The notes beneath the pieces are model-generated. The model ran no database searches. It had not been told where the DNA came from and saw only the letters and a list, made by a program, of their open reading frames with translations. From positions 1 through 7,130 of the forward strand of contig JACOVV010000025.1 in the NCBI GenBank assembly GCA_016177145.1: 7,130 bases of DNA, read 5' to 3'. This DNA comes from Candidatus Omnitrophota bacterium (GTDB taxonomy: Bacteria; Omnitrophota; Gorgyraeia; JACOVV01). The position numbers and the translations under genes were made by a program. Shown piece by piece: positions 602 through 7,121 of this stretch (positions are counted from its first letter, which is position 1; each line of letters opens with the position of its first letter).

Positions 602-697
602 ATGAAAGCTCTTAAGGATGATAACGTCTTTATTTTTATTACAGTTAGCGCTGTTGGTTTTTGGGGCTGTTGCCGGTTTTCTCTGCAGGCGGAGTGA
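602..697 (+). CDS. Possible 31-codon leader ORF overlapping the start of hyfB
   Basis: An ATG at 602 with a well-spaced Shine-Dalgarno opens a 31-codon frame ending at TGA 695-697, in a different frame from hyfB. The product would begin MKALKDDNVFIFITVSAVGF and resembles no family I know. Most of it is read from DNA that must also encode the hyfB N-terminus, so its sequence is constrained and may mean nothing. It is listed because its ribosome site is the best one in the leader, and a ribosome translating it would pass over the hyfB start; it could serve translational coupling or attenuation. It may equally be chance. Confidence 0.2.
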   Translation: MKALKDDNVFIFITVSAVGFWGCCRFSLQAE

Positions 698-2645
698 AGA
701 ACAAGCGAATTGGGCGGTCCACCTCTCGGCAGTTTTCGCCGGGGCGGTGGGGGTCATCTATTCGCTGACCGCTCTAACCGGCGGCAGGAGCTTTGATCTG
801 GGATTCTTTTCGATCTCTCCGGTCGGCCCGCTCCGCTTAGCCATTGATCCCCTTTCCGCTTTCTTTGTGCTGGTGATTTCCTTCCTCTCGACAGTCACCT
901 CGATTTACGCCATCGGCTACAGCCGCCACTACCAGGGGGACGGGCGGGACAGCCGCATCGCTTGTCTGGGATTCCTCTATAATCTCTTTATCCTCTCCAT
1001 GATCCTGGTCGTGACGGCGCGGGACGCTTTTTATTTTCTAATCTTCTGGGAAGTTATGTCGCTAGTCTCTTATTTTTTGGTTGTTTTTGAGCATACCAAG
1101 CCGGAGGCGAGGCAGGCCGGGATTTTTTATTTTGTCATGACCCACGCCGGCACGGCATTGATCGCCGCCGCTTTCTGGCTTCTTTTTATCGAGACCGGTT
1201 CTTTTTCCTTTGACGCTTTCCGTCTTCACGCGAACAATCTCCCCAGCGTTGTCAAGAACGCCGTTTTTCTCTGCGCTCTCGCCGGGTTCGGCACAAAGGC
1301 GGGACTGGTGCCGGTGCATGTCTGGCTCCCGCGGGCGCACCCGCAAGCCCCCAGCCACGTCTCGGCCTTGATGTCGGGGGTGATGATCAAAACCGCCGTT
1401 TACGCGTTGATTCGCTTTCTATTCACTTTCTTGGGAGAGATCCCGCTCTGGTGGGGGACTCTTCTTTTAACGGTTGCGATTCTTTCGACTCTTTTTGGGA
1501 TTCTCTACGCCTTGATGGAGCACGATCTCAAGCGGCTGCTCGCTTTTTCCAGCATCGAAAACATGGGGATTATCTTTCTGGGTGTTGGAATGGCGGCGGT
1601 GTTCACCTCACTGGGAGAGCCGCTCTACGCCGGTTTCGCTCTGATTGCCGCGCTGTATCATTTGATGAATCACGCTTTCTTTAAGGGGCTCCTCTTTTTA
1701 GGGGCCGGTTCGGTTCTCTCCCAAACTCATACCAGAAATATGGAGCAGTTGGGCGGACTCATCCGGAAGATGCCCTGGACTGCCGGCGCTTTTCTCATCG
1801 GGTGCCTGGCGATCTCGGCGCTCCCGCCGATGAATGGGTTTGTCAGCGAATGGATGACCCTGATGGCGCTTTTGGCCGGGAGCGGGTTTGATGGAGAAGG
1901 GCTGCGGTTTTTCACTCCGGTGCTGGCTTCTCTGCTGGGGTTCGCGGGGGCGCTGGCGGCAACCTGTTTTGTCAAAGCGTTTGGGATCACTTTTTTGGGA
2001 AGCCCGCGCTCTTCTCATTCCGAGCAGGCAACAGAGGCGAGCGTTTCCATGAAAGTAGGGCTGGGCATTCTTTCGGCCGGCTGTGTGGCGCTGGGGATTT
2101 CTTGCGGATGGATGATTCCCTTGTTGAACCGAGCCGCCAATTCGGCGCTGGGATACTCTGACGAAAATTTATTTAGTTTTAGCCGACAAGGGTTCCTGGT
2201 GAGCCCCGCGGGAATGAGCCAGATTTCTCCGCTAGTCATTTTCTTCACGCTGGCCGTTCTCTTGATCGCACTGGTGGTTTTATTGGGGAAGGGGGTTTAT
2301 CGGATCGGCCCCAGTTGGGCTTGCGGGATGCCGGCGCTCTCCCCGCGGATGCAATACTCGGCGATCGGTTATTCGAAACCGATGCGGCGTGTTTTTTCTT
2401 TTCTCTATCGTCCCACCCGCCGGGTGGAAGTAGAGGAAGAGGGGCACGATCTGCTTCGCACGGCACAGCGGTTTGAGGTTAAAATCGAACCGTTTTTCGA
2501 AAAAATTCTCTATCGCCCCGCTGTCCAATGGATCAGCCGTCTTTCTGAAAGAGCCAAACAGATTCAGAGGGGACATATCCAGCTCTATTTGAGTTATATT
2601 TTTATCACACTGCTCCTGCTCTTGATTTTCGTGAGGATGTCATGA
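618..2645 (+). CDS. hyfB: HyfB-like antiporter-type membrane subunit of a group 4 hydrogenase-related complex
   Basis: The 675-residue polytopic protein is close to the length of E. coli HyfB (about 672). It belongs to the Mrp-antiporter/NuoL-NuoM-NuoN family (Proton_antipo_M) and should form part of an ion-translocating membrane arm. Visible key residues are Glu145 in FWEVMSLVSY (TM5-type glutamate), Lys227 in GFGTKAGLVP (TM7 lysine), histidines 234, 241 and 247 in the following loop, Lys258 in SGVMIKTAVY, Lys305 in EHDLKRLLAFSSIENMG, Lys356 in NHAFFKGLLF, and Lys453 in CFVKAFG. The C-terminal extension carries the CGMPALSP...MQYSAIGYSKPMRRVF region (569-593) typical of HyfB/HycC, then a charged stretch and a last membrane helix (about 655-673). 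The start is the first possible one: an in-frame TGA lies at 603-605 and no ATG, GTG or TTG lies between it and 618. Its ribosome site is poorly placed. The stop overlaps hyfC by ATGA. Confidence 0.93.
   Translation: MITSLFLLQLALLVFGAVAGFLCRRSEEQANWAVHLSAVFAGAVGVIYSLTALTGGRSFDLGFFSISPVGPLRLAIDPLSAFFVLVISFLSTVTSIYAIGYSRHYQGDGRDSRIACLGFLYNLFILSMILVVTARDAFYFLIFWEVMSLVSYFLVVFEHTKPEARQAGIFYFVMTHAGTALIAAAFWLLFIETGSFSFDAFRLHANNLPSVVKNAVFLCALAGFGTKAGLVPVHVWLPRAHPQAPSHVSALMSGVMIKTAVYALIRFLFTFLGEIPLWWGTLLLTVAILSTLFGILYALMEHDLKRLLAFSSIENMGIIFLGVGMAAVFTSLGEPLYAGFALIAALYHLMNHAFFKGLLFLGAGSVLSQTHTRNMEQLGGLIRKMPWTAGAFLIGCLAISALPPMNGFVSEWMTLMALLAGSGFDGEGLRFFTPVLASLLGFAGALAATCFVKAFGITFLGSPRSSHSEQATEASVSMKVGLGILSAGCVALGISCGWMIPLLNRAANSALGYSDENLFSFSRQGFLVSPAGMSQISPLVIFFTLAVLLIALVVLLGKGVYRIGPSWACGMPALSPRMQYSAIGYSKPMRRVFSFLYRPTRRVEVEEEGHDLLRTAQRFEVKIEPFFEKILYRPAVQWISRLSERAKQIQRGHIQLYLSYIFITLLLLLIFVRMS
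2633..2636 (+). promoter_or_regulatory. Ribosome binding site for hyfC
   Basis: GAGG, 5 bases before the ATG at 2642, lies inside the 3' end of hyfB and supports the 4-base overlapping start. Confidence 0.6.
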
Positions 2646-3547
2646 GCCCGATTTTTCTTTCGATCCTTCAGGTAATACTAGTCATGGCGCTGGCCCCTGG
2701 CGTCAGCTGGTTCATCAAAAAATTAAAAGGGGCTTCTCAAAACCGGGTCGGCCCGGCGCTGGGACAGGTTTATTTTGATTTGATCAAACTCTTCCGCAAG
2801 GAGATGGTGGTTTCGGAGACCGCTTCCTGGGTTTTTCACGCCGCCCCGTTTGTTCTGTTCGCTTCGACCCTCTTGGCGGCGGGGCTAGTCCCTTTTTTCT
2901 GGAAAGAGACACTGCTCGGATTTGCCGGCGACGCGATTTTGTTGGTCTATCTTTTAGCGCTGGGTCGTTTCTTCATCGCCCTGGCGGCGATGGACGCGGG
3001 GACTTCCTTCGGAGGAATGGGGTCGAGCCGTGAGATGTTTCTTTCTTCCCTGACGGAACCAGCATTGCTTCTTTCTTTTTTCGCTTTCTCTGTGCACACC
3101 AAAACCACTTCGCTCCAGACGATGGCTGCCTCCCTGGGAAGCGAACCGCTGACAGCGACCCTCTTTTTCACCGCGCTGATCTTTGGAGCGATGCTGATCG
3201 TCACTCTGGTGGAGAGCGCGAGGATTCCGGTGGATAATCCGGCAACCCATCTGGAATTGACGATGGTCCATGAGGCGATGATTCTGGAATATTCGGGACG
3301 ATACCTCGCCCTGATCGAGTGGAGCCATCAGATCAGACAGCTTTTGTTCTTCAGTCTACTGGCGAATCTTTTCTTCCCTTTTGGTTTTTATCTATTGAAG
3401 GTTTTCGCTCTGGCTCTTTTGGTCGGCTGGATCGAGATTCACTCGGCCAAACTGCGTCTGTTCCGGGTCCCTGACTTGATCGCGATCGCCTTTGTCCTGG
3501 CGCTTCTTTCACTTCTGGGGCAGTTGATCATCGGGAGGCCGTCGTGA
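2642..3547 (+). CDS. hyfC: HyfC-like (NuoH-family) membrane anchor subunit
   Basis: This 301-residue membrane protein belongs to the NADH dehydrogenase subunit 1 (NuoH/HycD/HyfC) family; E. coli HyfC and HycD are 307-322 residues. In such complexes it docks the peripheral redox arm to the membrane and forms the start of the proton path. Visible signatures in order: SQNRVGPALGQVYFDLIKLF (32-51), AAMDAGTSFGGMGSSREMF (115-133), LTEPA (137-141), ESARIPVDNPATHLELTM (191-208), and HEAMILEYSGRYLALIEWS (210-228). The last segment, with acidic residues Glu205, Glu211, Glu216 and Glu226, is close to the Hyf type rather than the Hyc type. The start ATG overlaps the hyfB stop (ATGA) and the gene's own stop overlaps the hyfE start (GTGA), so the three are translationally coupled. 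Confidence 0.93.
   Translation: MSPIFLSILQVILVMALAPGVSWFIKKLKGASQNRVGPALGQVYFDLIKLFRKEMVVSETASWVFHAAPFVLFASTLLAAGLVPFFWKETLLGFAGDAILLVYLLALGRFFIALAAMDAGTSFGGMGSSREMFLSSLTEPALLLSFFAFSVHTKTTSLQTMAASLGSEPLTATLFFTALIFGAMLIVTLVESARIPVDNPATHLELTMVHEAMILEYSGRYLALIEWSHQIRQLLFFSLLANLFFPFGFYLLKVFALALLVGWIEIHSAKLRLFRVPDLIAIAFVLALLSLLGQLIIGRPS
3533..3538 (+). promoter_or_regulatory. Ribosome binding site that fixes the GTG start of hyfE
   Basis: GGGAGG sits 5 bases before the GTG at 3544, inside the end of hyfC. This supports the GTG as the true start of hyfE. Confidence 0.65.
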
Positions 3548-4203
3548 GCGCCGATCTGATTCCTTCGTTGATTCATTTAACCGGAATGCTTTTACTCGCC
3601 GCGGCGCTGGCGATCATCGCCTCGCCGCAATTGTTCGCCTGCATCCGCCTCTACGCGGCTCATTCTTTTCTCCTGGCCGCGACGACGATCCTAGTGGCCT
3701 GCCACGAGGGAGTAACGCATTTGTGGATTCCGGCGCTGTTGACGCTTCTATTAAAAGTGATCGTGATCCCGCAGGTTTTCTTCCGGATGATCCGGCGCCT
3801 CGGCATCCGCAGAGAAGTGGAAAGTTATATCAACATTCCATTTTCGTTGATCCTGGCGGTGGCGCTTCTTTTTCTCTCTTTTTATGGAACAGCTCACCTG
3901 CCGGGGTTAAGCGGCGTGGAAGAGAGGGAATTCATCCCGATGGCTGCCGCGACGGTCTTTTGGGGAATGCTGATGATGGCGACGAGAAAAAAAGCGCTGA
4001 CGCAGATCGTGGGGCTTCTGTTGATGGAGAACGGCCTTTTCCTGATGGCGATCACGCTCACTTCAGGGATGCCGCTTTTGGTCGAGTTGGGGATCTTCTT
4101 CGACGTGCTGGTCGGCGTTATCATTATGGGAGTTTTCGTCTTTAAAATCCGGGACGCGTTCGAAGGGATTGACGTGGATGATTTGACGGTGTTGAAAGGG
4201 TAA
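3544..4203 (+). CDS. hyfE: HyfE-like (NuoK-type) membrane subunit
   Basis: The 219-residue protein starts with GTG and matches hydrogenase-4 component E (about 216 residues in E. coli). It is almost wholly hydrophobic, with roughly six to seven membrane segments. The C-terminal half is NuoK-like: TRKKALTQIVGLLLMENGLF (147-166) with Glu162, and ELGIFFDVLVGVIIMGVFVF (181-200) with Glu181 and Asp187. These correspond in kind to the buried glutamates of NuoK that carry protons in complex I. The N-terminal half has Lys71 in a membrane segment (LLTLLLKVIVIPQVFF), another plausible proton-path residue. The gene follows hyfC directly with a 4-base overlap, so there is no room for the hyfD gene found between them in E. 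coli. The C-terminus has a short acidic tail (EGIDVDDLTVLKG). Confidence 0.9.
   Translation: MSADLIPSLIHLTGMLLLAAALAIIASPQLFACIRLYAAHSFLLAATTILVACHEGVTHLWIPALLTLLLKVIVIPQVFFRMIRRLGIRREVESYINIPFSLILAVALLFLSFYGTAHLPGLSGVEEREFIPMAAATVFWGMLMMATRKKALTQIVGLLLMENGLFLMAITLTSGMPLLVELGIFFDVLVGVIIMGVFVFKIRDAFEGIDVDDLTVLKG
4194..4200 (+). promoter_or_regulatory. Ribosome binding site for hyfF
   Basis: GAAAGGG lies 6 bases before the ATG at 4207, at the end of hyfE, and supports that start. Confidence 0.6.
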
Positions 4204-4206
4204 AAA

Positions 4207-5670
4207 ATGATTCTGAATTTATTAATCGTTCCATTGATCGCGGCGTTATTCTGCCAGATATCACCGACAATCAAGGTGAACCGTTTTTCTTTTGTTGCCG
4301 GGGCATTGGCATCAGCGGTTTTAGGATGGCGGGCTGTTTTCTTCTCAAGTTTTGAGAAGACGGTTTTCGCCATGGGCGGGAAACTGCTGATGGACCCGCT
4401 GTCGGCGGTTTTTGTTCTCCTCATTGTGTCGGTGGGACTCTTATCGGTTGTCTACGGGGCGGGGTATCTTTTTAGAGAAGATTCCGGGATTTCATTTCCC
4501 AAGCTCCGCCGGTATACCTGTTTTTTTCATCTCTTCCTTTTTACGATGCTGTTGACGGTCCTCTCCAATAACCTGGGAATCATGTGGATCGCCATCGAGG
4601 GGACAACGCTCGCCTCCGCGTTTTTGGTGAATGTGGACGATAAAAAAAGTTCCATCGAAGCGGCGTGGAAATATTTGATCCTCTGCACCGTCGGGATCGC
4701 CCTGGCGCTCTTCGGGATCATTCTCGTCTATTATTCGGCCGTGTCGGGAGCGGCGGGGGAGAGCAAAGATTCCCTGAACTGGACCTTTCTGTTAGAGCAC
4801 GCGCGGCAGTTGAATCCGGAAGTGATGAAACTCGCGTTTATCTTTATTCTCGTCGGGTATGGAACCAAGGCGGGGTTGGCCCCGTTTCACTCATGGCTTC
4901 CGGACGCCCACAGCCAGGCCCCCAGCCCCGTGAGCGCGCTTTTATCAGGAGTGTTGCTTAGCTGCGCTACGCTAGGAATCTTACGGTTCCATCTTTTGAC
5001 GCAAGCCGCGACCGGTTCTCTTTTTTCATCCCATCTTCTTGTTTTCTTCGGGATCCTTTCTGTCGCCGTCGCCGTCCCCTTTATTTTGGAACAGGCCGAT
5101 TACAAGCGGCTCTTCGCTTATTCCAGCGTCGAGCATATGGGGCTGGTCGTGACCGGGATCGGGTTCGGCAGTCCGTTGGCTATTTACGGAGCGATCTTCC
5201 ATGTCATCGTCCACGCTTTCAACAAATCGCTCCTCTTTTTCAGCTGTGGGCATCTCCTGTACCACTTTGAAACCAAAGAGATTAAAAAGGTCAGAGGGAT
5301 TTTAAGAACGCGCCCGTTTTTAGGAGTGATTTTCTTTCTGGGGACAATGGCGATTACCGGACTGCCTCCCTTCGGCACTTTTGTCAGTGAGTTCATGATC
5401 TTAAGCGGGGGATTTAGCGCCCACCGGTGGGCCGCCTGCGGGATTCTTCTGTTTTTGCTGGTGTTTATTTTTGCCGGATTCCTGCGCCACGCGAGCCGCA
5501 TGACCTTTGGAGAGAGTTCCGCTTCCGGCCATTCGCAAAAGAACCTTTGGATGGATGGAGTTTTGCTCGCGGGAATGGTTTTGATTCTTGTGATGGGGTT
5601 TTACCTGCCGAGTCCATTGCATCAGTTGATACAAAAAGCGAGCGTTATCGCCGGCGGAGTCTCCTCATGA
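4207..5670 (+). CDS. hyfF: HyfF-like antiporter-type membrane subunit
   Basis: This 487-residue member of the NuoL/M/N-Mrp antiporter family is paralogous to the HyfB above and somewhat shorter than E. coli HyfF (about 526). The central segment shows WIAIEGTTLASAFLV with Glu131, EAAWKYLILCTVGIALALFG (151-170), VGYGTKAGLAPFHSWLPDAH (217-236) with Lys221, QADYKRLFAYSSVEHMG with Lys300, VHAFNKSLLFF (335-345) with Lys340, and GLPPFGTFVSEFMI (385-398) with Glu395. The EAAWKYL block and the position after hyfE favour HyfF over HyfD. Compared with HyfB, the TM8-type lysine is Ser252 and the TM12-type lysine is aligned with Arg427, so its proton path differs. It sits 3 bases after hyfE and its stop overlaps the hyfG start (ATGA). 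Confidence 0.9.
   Translation: MILNLLIVPLIAALFCQISPTIKVNRFSFVAGALASAVLGWRAVFFSSFEKTVFAMGGKLLMDPLSAVFVLLIVSVGLLSVVYGAGYLFREDSGISFPKLRRYTCFFHLFLFTMLLTVLSNNLGIMWIAIEGTTLASAFLVNVDDKKSSIEAAWKYLILCTVGIALALFGIILVYYSAVSGAAGESKDSLNWTFLLEHARQLNPEVMKLAFIFILVGYGTKAGLAPFHSWLPDAHSQAPSPVSALLSGVLLSCATLGILRFHLLTQAATGSLFSSHLLVFFGILSVAVAVPFILEQADYKRLFAYSSVEHMGLVVTGIGFGSPLAIYGAIFHVIVHAFNKSLLFFSCGHLLYHFETKEIKKVRGILRTRPFLGVIFFLGTMAITGLPPFGTFVSEFMILSGGFSAHRWAACGILLFLLVFIFAGFLRHASRMTFGESSASGHSQKNLWMDGVLLAGMVLILVMGFYLPSPLHQLIQKASVIAGGVSS
5656..5659 (+). promoter_or_regulatory. Ribosome binding site for hyfG
   Basis: GGAG lies 7 bases before the ATG at 5667. It favours this start over ATG codons further up in the same open frame, which would overlap hyfF by as much as 244 bases and add residues unlike the family. 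Confidence 0.6.
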
Positions 5671-7121
5671 AAATAAATCAGGAATCGCGCCTAGTGGTCG
5701 AGAAGGACGAGATCATTCGTAAGGTACAAACACTGGTCCAGGATTCAAAAATGCGGTTTCTATTTCTCTTTGCTTCGGATGAAAGAAGAGAGAGGGGAAA
5801 TTTTTGCCTCCGATACCTGTTTTCCTATCCCCAGCAGGACCGGTTCCTGACGCTCGAAGTTGACATTTCAGAGAAAGCGCCCAGTTTCCCTTCGGTGACG
5901 CCGCTGTTGCCCCAGGCCGATTGGATGGAGAGAGAAATTCAGGACCTCTACGGACTTGTCCCCCAGGGGCATCCCGACCCGCGCCGGCTCGTCCTCCACG
6001 GAAAAGAGGGGGAATATTCCTTTGACCGGGTCGAAGGAGAAGGGGTTTTTGAAATTCCGGTCGGGCCGGTTCACGCGGGGATCATCGAACCGGGGCATTT
6101 CCGTTTTTCCTCGGCCGGTGAAAGTATTCTCAAACTTGAAATCCGGCATTTTTACACCCACAAGGGGATTGAAAAACTCGGTGAAGGGAAAAGCGCCGAT
6201 CATCTGCTCTGTTTAGCGGAGCGGATCTCAGGAGACAATTCTCTGGCCCACGCGACCGCCTGCGCGCAAGGGTTAGAAGACCTCTGCGGCCTTTCAGCGC
6301 CGCCGCGCGCCCATCTGCTGCGCGTGATTTTTCTCGAGATGGAACGGATCTACAACCATTTGGGAGACATTTCCGGGATGAGTATGGATGTGGCTTTCGG
6401 TTTTGGCGCCGCGCAACTGGCGAGGATCAAAGAACAGATGATGCGGCTCAACGAACGCCTCACCGGCAGCCGCCTGCTCCGTTCGGTGGTCATCGTCGGC
6501 GGCGTCCGGAGAGATATCTCTAAAGATCAGCAGGCCTTTCTTCTCAATGAACTGAAACGAATCAAACAAGATTTTGACAGCGTCATTCAATTTTTGTGGA
6601 GCGTCAGTTCCTTGATGGATCGAATCCAGGGGACCGGCGTCATCACCAAAGAGATCGCCGAGGTTTTAGGGGCGGTTGGCCCGGTCGCGAGGGCTTCAGG
6701 GATTGACCGTGACCTGCGGCGGGAACATTCCTACGCCGCGTATCAGAACCTCTTTTTTATGGTTCCTGTTTTCCCTGAAGGAGACGTGGAGAGCCGGATG
6801 AAGGTGAGAGTGCAGGAAATTTATGAATCTTTTAAACTGATTCAGGAAGCGGTGGAAGCGCTCCCCCAGACTCCTTGTCGTGTTCCCGCGGGAGATCTGC
6901 CCCCCAACCAAAGCGCTCTTGGGTATGTCGAATCGCCGCGCGGTTCCTGTTTCCATTGGATACAGACCGACTCGAAAGGGAAGATCGCGCGGTGGAAAAT
7001 TCAATCTCCCTCTTTTACCAATTGGCGGTTGATCGAATACGCGGTCCTCGGGAACATCGTTCCGGATTTCCCGCTGATCAATAAAAGCATGAATCTTTCT
7101 TACTCGGGAAACGACAGATGA
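5667..7121 (+). CDS. hyfG: HyfG-like large subunit (NuoC-NuoD fusion type) lacking all NiFe-binding cysteines
   Basis: This 484-residue soluble subunit has a NuoC-like N-terminal domain (about 1-120, signature EREIQDLYGLVPQGHPDPRR at 88-107) fused to a NuoD/NiFe large-subunit domain, the arrangement of HyfG/HycE. The second domain shows IPVGPVHAGIIEPGHFRF (130-147), HKGIEKL (165-171), ERISGDNSLAHATA (185-198), RAHLLRVIFLEMERIYNHLG (214-233) and VGGVRRDISKD (277-287). In E. coli HycE the NiFe ligands lie in RVCGICGFAH and DPCYSCTDR; here the same places read RISGDNSLAH and NLSYSGNDR, so the four Cys become Ser188, Asn191, Ser478 and Gly481. The six cysteines present (47, 182, 199, 207, 404, 428) form no CxxC pair. 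The protein ends at the Arg matching HycE's processing site. This is the pattern of Ehr (energy-converting hydrogenase related) complexes, not of a working hydrogenase. The redox substrate is unknown. The stop overlaps the next start (ATGA). Confidence 0.92.
   Translation: MKINQESRLVVEKDEIIRKVQTLVQDSKMRFLFLFASDERRERGNFCLRYLFSYPQQDRFLTLEVDISEKAPSFPSVTPLLPQADWMEREIQDLYGLVPQGHPDPRRLVLHGKEGEYSFDRVEGEGVFEIPVGPVHAGIIEPGHFRFSSAGESILKLEIRHFYTHKGIEKLGEGKSADHLLCLAERISGDNSLAHATACAQGLEDLCGLSAPPRAHLLRVIFLEMERIYNHLGDISGMSMDVAFGFGAAQLARIKEQMMRLNERLTGSRLLRSVVIVGGVRRDISKDQQAFLLNELKRIKQDFDSVIQFLWSVSSLMDRIQGTGVITKEIAEVLGAVGPVARASGIDRDLRREHSYAAYQNLFFMVPVFPEGDVESRMKVRVQEIYESFKLIQEAVEALPQTPCRVPAGDLPPNQSALGYVESPRGSCFHWIQTDSKGKIARWKIQSPSFTNWRLIEYAVLGNIVPDFPLINKSMNLSYSGNDR

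Follow-up and report, generated by a model that had tools for sequence, protein, structure and literature searches.

The window analysed here, a stretch of 7,130 nucleotides, ends in a gene for a protein resembling the large subunit of group 4 [NiFe] hydrogenases, and it raises the question of what such a protein does once the residues that hold the NiFe centre are gone. The gene (5667..7121, + strand) encodes a product of 484 aa, EhrL, in which a NuoC-like (30 kDa) part is fused to a NuoD/HycE-like one; the translation terminates in NLSYSGNDR, without C-terminal extension. When EhrL is aligned with HycE (PDB 7z0s chain E), the segment RISGDN of the former N-terminal NiFe motif (RISGDNSLAH, residues 186-195, including Asp190; 6222..6251, + strand) falls on RVCGIC, and the former C-terminal motif (NLSYSGNDR, residues 476-484; 7092..7118, + strand) falls on DPCYSCTDR, as the original prediction had it. 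The codons of the four replaced residues lie where they had been placed (Ser188 at 6228-6230, Asn191 at 6237-6239, Ser478 at 7098-7100 and Gly481 at 7107-7109), and a second alignment sets HycE Cys531 against Ser478 and Cys534 against Gly481. All four cysteines of the RxCGxC...CxxC signature that marks group 4 [NiFe] hydrogenases are absent from EhrL and, because these are the residues that hold the NiFe centre, a hydrogenase function of the complex is very improbable.

Loss of the cysteines is a conserved state, not decay. About 8000 matches to EhrL were scored; among the 120 listed as best (the window's own protein cluster included), R[IV]SGD[N/H] is found in 120 and LSY[S/A]G[N/S]D in 119, the row lacking the C-terminal motif being a truncated sequence. 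The replacement thus runs through these top-scoring matches and the reading frames are intact, which bears out the view that this is a substitution and no decay, frameshift or sequencing error. Named homologues among the matches listed belong mostly to Omnitrophota, those of Methanoperedens/ANME-2 being more distant. Counts free of selection come from this list of 120, from a set of 86 rows (Omnitrophota-like relatives plus the window) picked by homology alone, and from the sorting of genomes by type described below; two further families, of 187 and 87 rows, were selected by Ser478, Tyr479, Gly/Ala481 and Asp483, and invariance at these positions there is by construction. In the 86 rows, Gly189, His231, Arg425, Ser478, Tyr479 and Asp483 are present throughout, as is Asp241 (6387..6389, + strand), with Gly481 in 85 and Asp190 in 83. 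Cysteine occurs in none of these rows at positions 191, 478 and 481 and in six at position 188, which otherwise holds S (42), A (35), E, T or V; position 191 holds T (36), S (29), N (12) or A (9), with E and H occurring elsewhere.

The residues flanking the motifs had been described as still aligned and conserved. They do align, but their conservation is below what was claimed: Arg186 is present in 27 of the 86 rows (Cys in 27, Ser in 26), His195 in 69 (Asn in Nitrososphaeria-labelled rows) and the terminal Arg in 12, the last residue being Leu in the other 74. Inspection of the 187-row alignment revealed no other conserved cysteine at the ligand places: Cys is present in at most 102 rows of any column, and the columns with more than 20 Cys avoid those places. 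As to a second large subunit that could pair with the membrane subunits, the sole other PF00346 protein found in the window's genome (G000; 1.23 Mb, 60% complete) is of NuoD type and lies on a separate contig.

Homologues of EhrL occur in 74 of 384 genomes of a class sample (E<=1e-80) and in 12 of 384 genomes of a phylum sample (E<=1e-125), the window's genome being counted in both. Among 20 named-genome loci, the SGD motif type appears in those labelled Thaumarchaeota/Nitrososphaera, Methanomassiliicoccales, Euryarchaeota, Micrarchaeota and Acidimicrobiaceae, one of these being cut short; rows from Sphingobium, Solirubrobacterales, Spirochaetota and Thermoplasmatota show different replacements, and two Bacillota rows retain all four Cys. 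In the phylum sample, the window's EhrL type is otherwise found outside the window's class, in 11 genomes all of the same phylum, so that gene transfer or a mis-binned contig may be involved. In the assembly of G415 the EhrL frame is split (L091:9276-10812).

Membership of EhrL in the published Ehr kind is supported by features: the large subunit is homologous to those of group 4 hydrogenases with the NiFe ligands absent, and antiporter-like and NuoH-like membrane genes probably lie in the same operon, judging from gene order and overlaps. HypD is needed for building the NiFe cofactor. It was not found in the window's genome (60% complete), nor in nine of the 11 other genomes with the window's type of EhrL (type i below); two of the 11 have it. 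As 7 of 12 genomes with other types of EhrL have HypD, its absence is no mark of the gene as such. With the four ligands absent, this state conserved, HypD mostly not found and published Ehr descriptions matching, the assignment to an Ehr-type complex that is no hydrogenase appears sound. The warning that automatic annotation would mislead also proved apt: NCBIfam names the neighbouring HyfB "hydrogenase 4 subunit B" above its cut-off, and some sources label EhrL homologues "Ni,Fe-hydrogenase III large subunit".

The window contains five genes of the six-gene complex, all on the + strand; it spans its whole contig, which ends nine bases past the EhrL stop. A HyfB-like antiporter-type subunit (618..2645; Glu145/Lys227 pair and Glu411 kept) is followed by a HyfC/NuoH-like membrane anchor (2642..3547; Glu139, Glu205 and Glu216 kept), a HyfE-like membrane subunit (3544..4203; matches under curated cut-offs), a HyfF-like antiporter-type subunit (4207..5670; Glu131/Lys221 and Glu395 kept) and EhrL. 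Four-base overlaps join HyfB to HyfC (ATGA), HyfC to HyfE (GTGA) and HyfF to EhrL (ATGA). Conservation of the charged residues extends to the relatives: HyfB Glu145, Lys227 and Glu411 are kept in 35 of 35 sequences passing length and score filters, HyfC Glu139 and Glu205 in 32 of 32, and HyfF Glu131, Lys221 and Glu395 in 37, 39 and 38 of 39, respectively. In E. coli HycC the lysine is missing. Two E-channel glutamates of NuoH/HycD are replaced in HyfC (NuoH Glu216 by Ala201, Glu218 by His203), and the place of NuoM Lys265 is taken by Ser252 in the window's membrane arm. The main pump residues are kept. Like the original prediction, we infer that ion pumping by this complex would be driven by a redox reaction of another kind.

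A comparison of 40 neighbourhoods shows that SGD-type loci, as far as their contigs extend, repeatedly have the gene order HyfB-C-E-F-EhrL-small subunit; in several loci the frame picker passed over one membrane gene or chose a wrong frame for it. No recurring dehydrogenase was identified beside the operon in these 40 neighbourhoods, whose flanks were mostly compared by position and with the window's six genes. The 3′ end of a gene for an HI0933-like FAD-binding flavoprotein (1-510, + strand) lies 107 bases upstream of HyfB. This protein was considered as a partner and set aside, a relative being near the operon in just one other of the 40 neighbourhoods (L089). One neighbourhood, L099 (G331), carries two sets of HyfB-C-E-F genes in tandem.

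The small subunit gene of the window's genome lies beyond the contig end. It follows EhrL in L081-L090, with a fragment in L091. The small subunits of L081-L090 are about 300 aa long; nine carry two [4Fe-4S] ferredoxin motifs and the tenth one (pattern CxxCxxCxxxC, by which variants can be missed), and all ten have the four Cys of the proximal (N2-like) cluster. Pfam finds both domains, Fer4-type and PF01058, in one small subunit of the closest type, and among the matches listed both are present in 119 of 120 relatives of that same subunit, the other being partial. By analogy with these relatives, the window's own small subunit would bear ferredoxin-type clusters. A search for it elsewhere in the assembly gave, over the 20-kDa domain, only NuoB-type matches. 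One of these (G000:C54:2-349) is closer to E. coli NuoB (50%) than to the small subunit of a relative (42%), and another, on C66, adjoins the NuoD gene; two more weak matches cover the ferredoxin part only. In Micrarchaeota archaeon REEA49, the small subunit beside a Cys-free EhrL (L015:11372-11887) has lost the proximal-cluster Cys (CGSSNDVE ... GDGA ... GNPP), so that a redox cluster may be missing from that place in this complex.

Genome G421 has a Cys-free copy of the operon (L084) and a Cys-bearing one (L092), which gives access to a sister family. All 120 rows among the matches listed for the L092 type (own cluster included) have the four Cys and end in ELCY[SA]C[TC]DR; among these 120, position 241 is always Gly, position 190 is Val (103), Ala (14), Ser (2) or Thr (1), and Ile140 and Glu141 are invariant. 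Between EhrL and its Cys-bearing sister, absence of the metal ligands accompanies two acids near the site, Asp190 and Asp241. Asp241 is not unique to Cys-less proteins, since Asp is found at the equivalent place in complex I (where Glu also occurs) and, by alignment, in MbhL. The counterpart of position 190 in E. coli HyaB is, by alignment, Val78, a residue that presumably lines the hydrogenase gas channel. Members of the sister family (P0241-P0360) end at C[TC]DR without C-terminal extension and therefore would need no HycI-kind maturation protease; in the 91%-complete assembly of G421, HypD was not found despite the Cys-bearing copy. We take the sister family to be, probably, HydDB group 4f. 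A remark in the accessible part of PMC10284858 helped in this assignment.

In trees built without the motif columns, the SGD rows, the other Cys-less rows and the Cys-bearing sister form one superclade (100/100 support), separate from HycE/HyfG, Ech-like and NuoD rows. These trees exclude near-copies as well as rows with fewer than 230 filled columns, and L023 was omitted from the second one. Tests of the SGD rows as one clade, and of these plus the other Cys-less rows, returned p 0.35 and p 0.40, respectively; an earlier test of a single loss, with a smaller row set, gave p 0.52. The cysteines may thus have disappeared once or several times.

What the emptied chamber retains can be read by projecting onto EhrL the residue roles given for HycE in the available text of PMC9474812. 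In the beta1-beta2 loop, Asp192 corresponds to Ile140 and the proton donor Glu193 to Glu141 (6087..6089, + strand). Ser283 becomes Asn230, and the proton-path residues His284, Arg395, Glu437 and Arg478 are kept as His231, Arg342, Glu384 and Arg425. The place of the canopy aspartate, Asp529, is taken by Asn476 (Asn/Ser in 149 of 187 family rows); replacing this aspartate by a non-protonatable residue harms complex I, according to the same partial source. The chamber of EhrL has thus kept the proton path, the arginine of the canopy and a single proton donor; the metal ligands and the canopy aspartate are missing from it. At the ligand places stands a conserved polar set, Ser188-Gly189-Asp190-Asn191 ... 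Ser478-Tyr479-Ser480-Gly481-Asn482-Asp483. The quinone-site residues of complex I (Nqo4) are absent, with Ile140 at the place of His38 (187 of 187 rows) and Gly189 at that of Tyr87, and EhrL scores 189 bits vs an NCBIfam NuoD cut-off of 459 (TIGR01962). Confidence of the structure model is low at residues 133-148 and 480-484.

A clue to the substrate came from sorting 85 genomes, the window's included, into three EhrL types. Markers for menaquinone synthesis were MqnA/D and MenD, the MenD search covering 80 of the 85 genomes and the other five being counted as unknown. In type i, that of the window, Glu141 is kept, a marker is present in 11 of 12 genomes, and 10 of 11 small subunits have a ferredoxin motif (the eleventh is a fragment). 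Type ii (S[IV]AGDT/LSYAGHDL-like) keeps Glu141; of the 25 small subunits seen, 5 carry a ferredoxin motif, and a marker is present in 20 of 28 genomes (6 MqnA/D, 14 MenD above cut-off). In type iii ([C/R][IV]SGD.../DLSY..ND-like), Glu141 is lost in 44 of 45, the ferredoxin motif is found in 0 of 45, and none of the 40 genomes tested for both MqnA/D and MenD has a marker. Over all types, a marker occurs in 31 of 41 genomes with Glu141 vs 0 of 39 without (second G331 copy left out). The raw counts give a Fisher p of 8e-14, which is not taken as proof: phylogenetically independent pairs include at most one that is informative, and they yield no significance. Since the tree shows roughly a single loss of Glu141, the contrast lends no independent support. 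It is the best clue to the substrate that was found, a lead and not proof.

The markers themselves are imperfect companions. MqnA/MqnD-family genes occur in 11 of 12 type i genomes (the missing one is 72% complete; the window's has two), and ten Glu141-bearing genomes are without both markers, five of them more than 90% complete. MqnA/D as a requirement was rejected, as 67 of the 74 class genomes with a homologue are without it. In the phylum sample, co-occurrence is weak, because only 10 of 43 genomes outside the window's class with MqnA/D have EhrL (E<=1e-125). A UbiA search was undiscriminating (21 of 24 genomes match). Methanomassiliicoccales-labelled members retain Glu141 and the ferredoxin motifs; Methanomassiliicoccales are not known to synthesize menaquinone. 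A gene of the pyruvate:ferredoxin-oxidoreductase type (PF01855) is present in 12 of 12 type i genomes, including the window's, which has complex I genes as well.

Taken together, these data make it quite possible, if still tentative, that the complex is a ferredoxin:menaquinone oxidoreductase coupled to ion pumping. Ferredoxin would deliver electrons to the small subunit, and these would end at the proximal cluster next to the emptied NiFe chamber; menaquinone would enter the chamber, accept two electrons and be protonated by Glu141, which would play the part that a histidine has in complex I, and this reduction would drive ion pumping via the membrane arm. Family-wide ligand loss, the mostly missing HypD, the recurring operon order, PF01855, the ferredoxin motifs of the small subunits, the Glu141/menaquinone pattern and the kept pump residues all speak for a pump of this kind. 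This reading is argued against by the absence of His38/Tyr87 equivalents, the canopy aspartate and two E-channel glutamates, by the Glu141-bearing genomes and type iii members without quinone markers, by the weak co-occurrence in the phylum, by the Methanomassiliicoccales-labelled members and by the low model confidence at 133-148 and 480-484. Furthermore, the presence of another quinone reductase in a genome with complex I genes would call for an explanation. Extended to the whole SGD type, the reading becomes more doubtful: these Ehr complexes might be quinone reductases outside the complex I line that protonate through Glu141, and lineages that lost menaquinone would have shed Glu141 and the ferredoxin domain while retaining all other parts of the complex.

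An alternative is a small substrate other than quinone, such as polysulfide, reduced by the proximal cluster in the emptied chamber with pumping coupled to it. The precedent is the Pyrococcus MBS: according to the accessible part of PMC7684303, two of its four NiFe ligands are gone, as are the quinone residues of complex I, and the proximal cluster is where polysulfide is reduced. Such a substrate fits the members without quinone markers. However, the same text describes the MBS cluster as held by three Cys, the fourth being in a shortened loop, whereas all ten closest-type small subunits have four (that of the window's genome lies past the contig end); it also reports that the equivalent of MbhL Glu21 is absent from MBS, whose catalysis needs no proton, whereas EhrL retains Glu141. 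The latter contrast is weakened by the mention, in the part of PMC9474812 available, of one acidic residue on the MbsL loop. We regard a chamber of this sort as unlikely for EhrL, although it is one of the two chief alternatives, the other being a pump with a separate partner.

Neither do we think it probable that the pump is driven by a partner encoded elsewhere, such as a formate dehydrogenase, whether or not a quinone is the acceptor. PMC6349859 (seen in part) puts forward such an FDH-Ehr complex for other phyla, among them Riflemargulisbacteria, and considers quinone as an acceptor that it might use, while noting that the genomes concerned revealed no quinone pathway; moreover type iii members, being without ferredoxin motifs, must receive electrons from another protein. 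But no recurring dehydrogenase was identified beside the operon, in flanks compared mostly by position and with the window's six genes, and the window's relatives have ferredoxin motifs of their own.

Fainter still is the prospect that the polar replacements bind another metal or cofactor, so that redox chemistry would persist where the NiFe centre used to be. The near-invariant Asp190 (83/86), Asp241 (86/86) and Asp483 (86/86) could ligate a hard metal, but the first two ligand places, 188 and 191, are variable, unlike strict ligands. A decaying hydrogenase or non-functional relic, for which the split gene in L091 and the HypD not found in the window's genome might be invoked, is hardly credible given the replacement in all of the 120 best matches listed (EhrL itself included), the intact overlapping frames and the near-invariant new residues.

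Cys-less Ehr complexes have already been published, and quinone has been suggested as an acceptor of Ehr (in the part of PMC6349859 available). Reports of Ehr cover comammox Nitrospira, ammonia-oxidizing archaea, CPR bacteria and Sulfobacillus, and in the available portions of these papers the function is mostly called unknown or H2 unlikely (PMC10284858, PMC4378227, PMC10432482, PMC7304191, PMC12342949); one of them (PMC12342949) reports that H2 did not raise Ehr expression in Nitrospira moscoviensis. The SGD/SYSGND motif, the newly conserved residues, the Glu141 pattern and the sister family are unmentioned in the accessible parts of the Ehr literature covered, a body from which subscription papers were mostly absent, and the accessible parts of PMC8542988, PMC13386864 and PMC2799521 hold nothing bearing on the motif. 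From the replacement motif, the sister family with cysteines and the pattern of Glu141, ferredoxin motifs and menaquinone markers come a concrete substrate guess and named residues for Ehr. If the ferredoxin:menaquinone reading is true, the Ehr family gains a substrate, and a second case of a hydrogenase pocket turned quinone site is added.

Set against known systems, the complex resembles published Ehr in its HyfB/C/E/F-like arm, its hydrogenase-like large and (in relatives) small subunits and its absent NiFe ligands; what sets the SGD/SYSGND type apart is a NuoC domain fused to the large subunit and, in close relatives, the ferredoxin motifs of the small subunit, which the available Ehr texts do not name. 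It differs from E. coli Hyd-3 and Hyd-4 (HycE/HyfG) in that all four Cys, Asp192 and Asp529 are changed, and in that HycE and HyfG continue for 32 residues beyond the motif whereas EhrL has no extension. With the Cys-bearing sister it shares the superclade, Ile140, Glu141 and the lack of extension; the sister has four Cys, Gly241 and Val/Ala/Ser/Thr190, whereas EhrL is Cys-free with Asp241 and Asp190. Like complex I (NuoD/Nqo4), it has lost the four Cys and has an acid at the Asp241 place and the main membrane-arm pump residues; unlike complex I, it is without His38/Tyr87 equivalents, has Glu141 instead, and is accompanied by no NADH module in the window. Pyrococcus MBS, as described in the accessible part of PMC7684303, differs in keeping two of the four Cys, in its Mrp-type arm and in its three-Cys proximal cluster, and is like the EhrL complex in having an emptied NiFe chamber that adjoins the proximal cluster.
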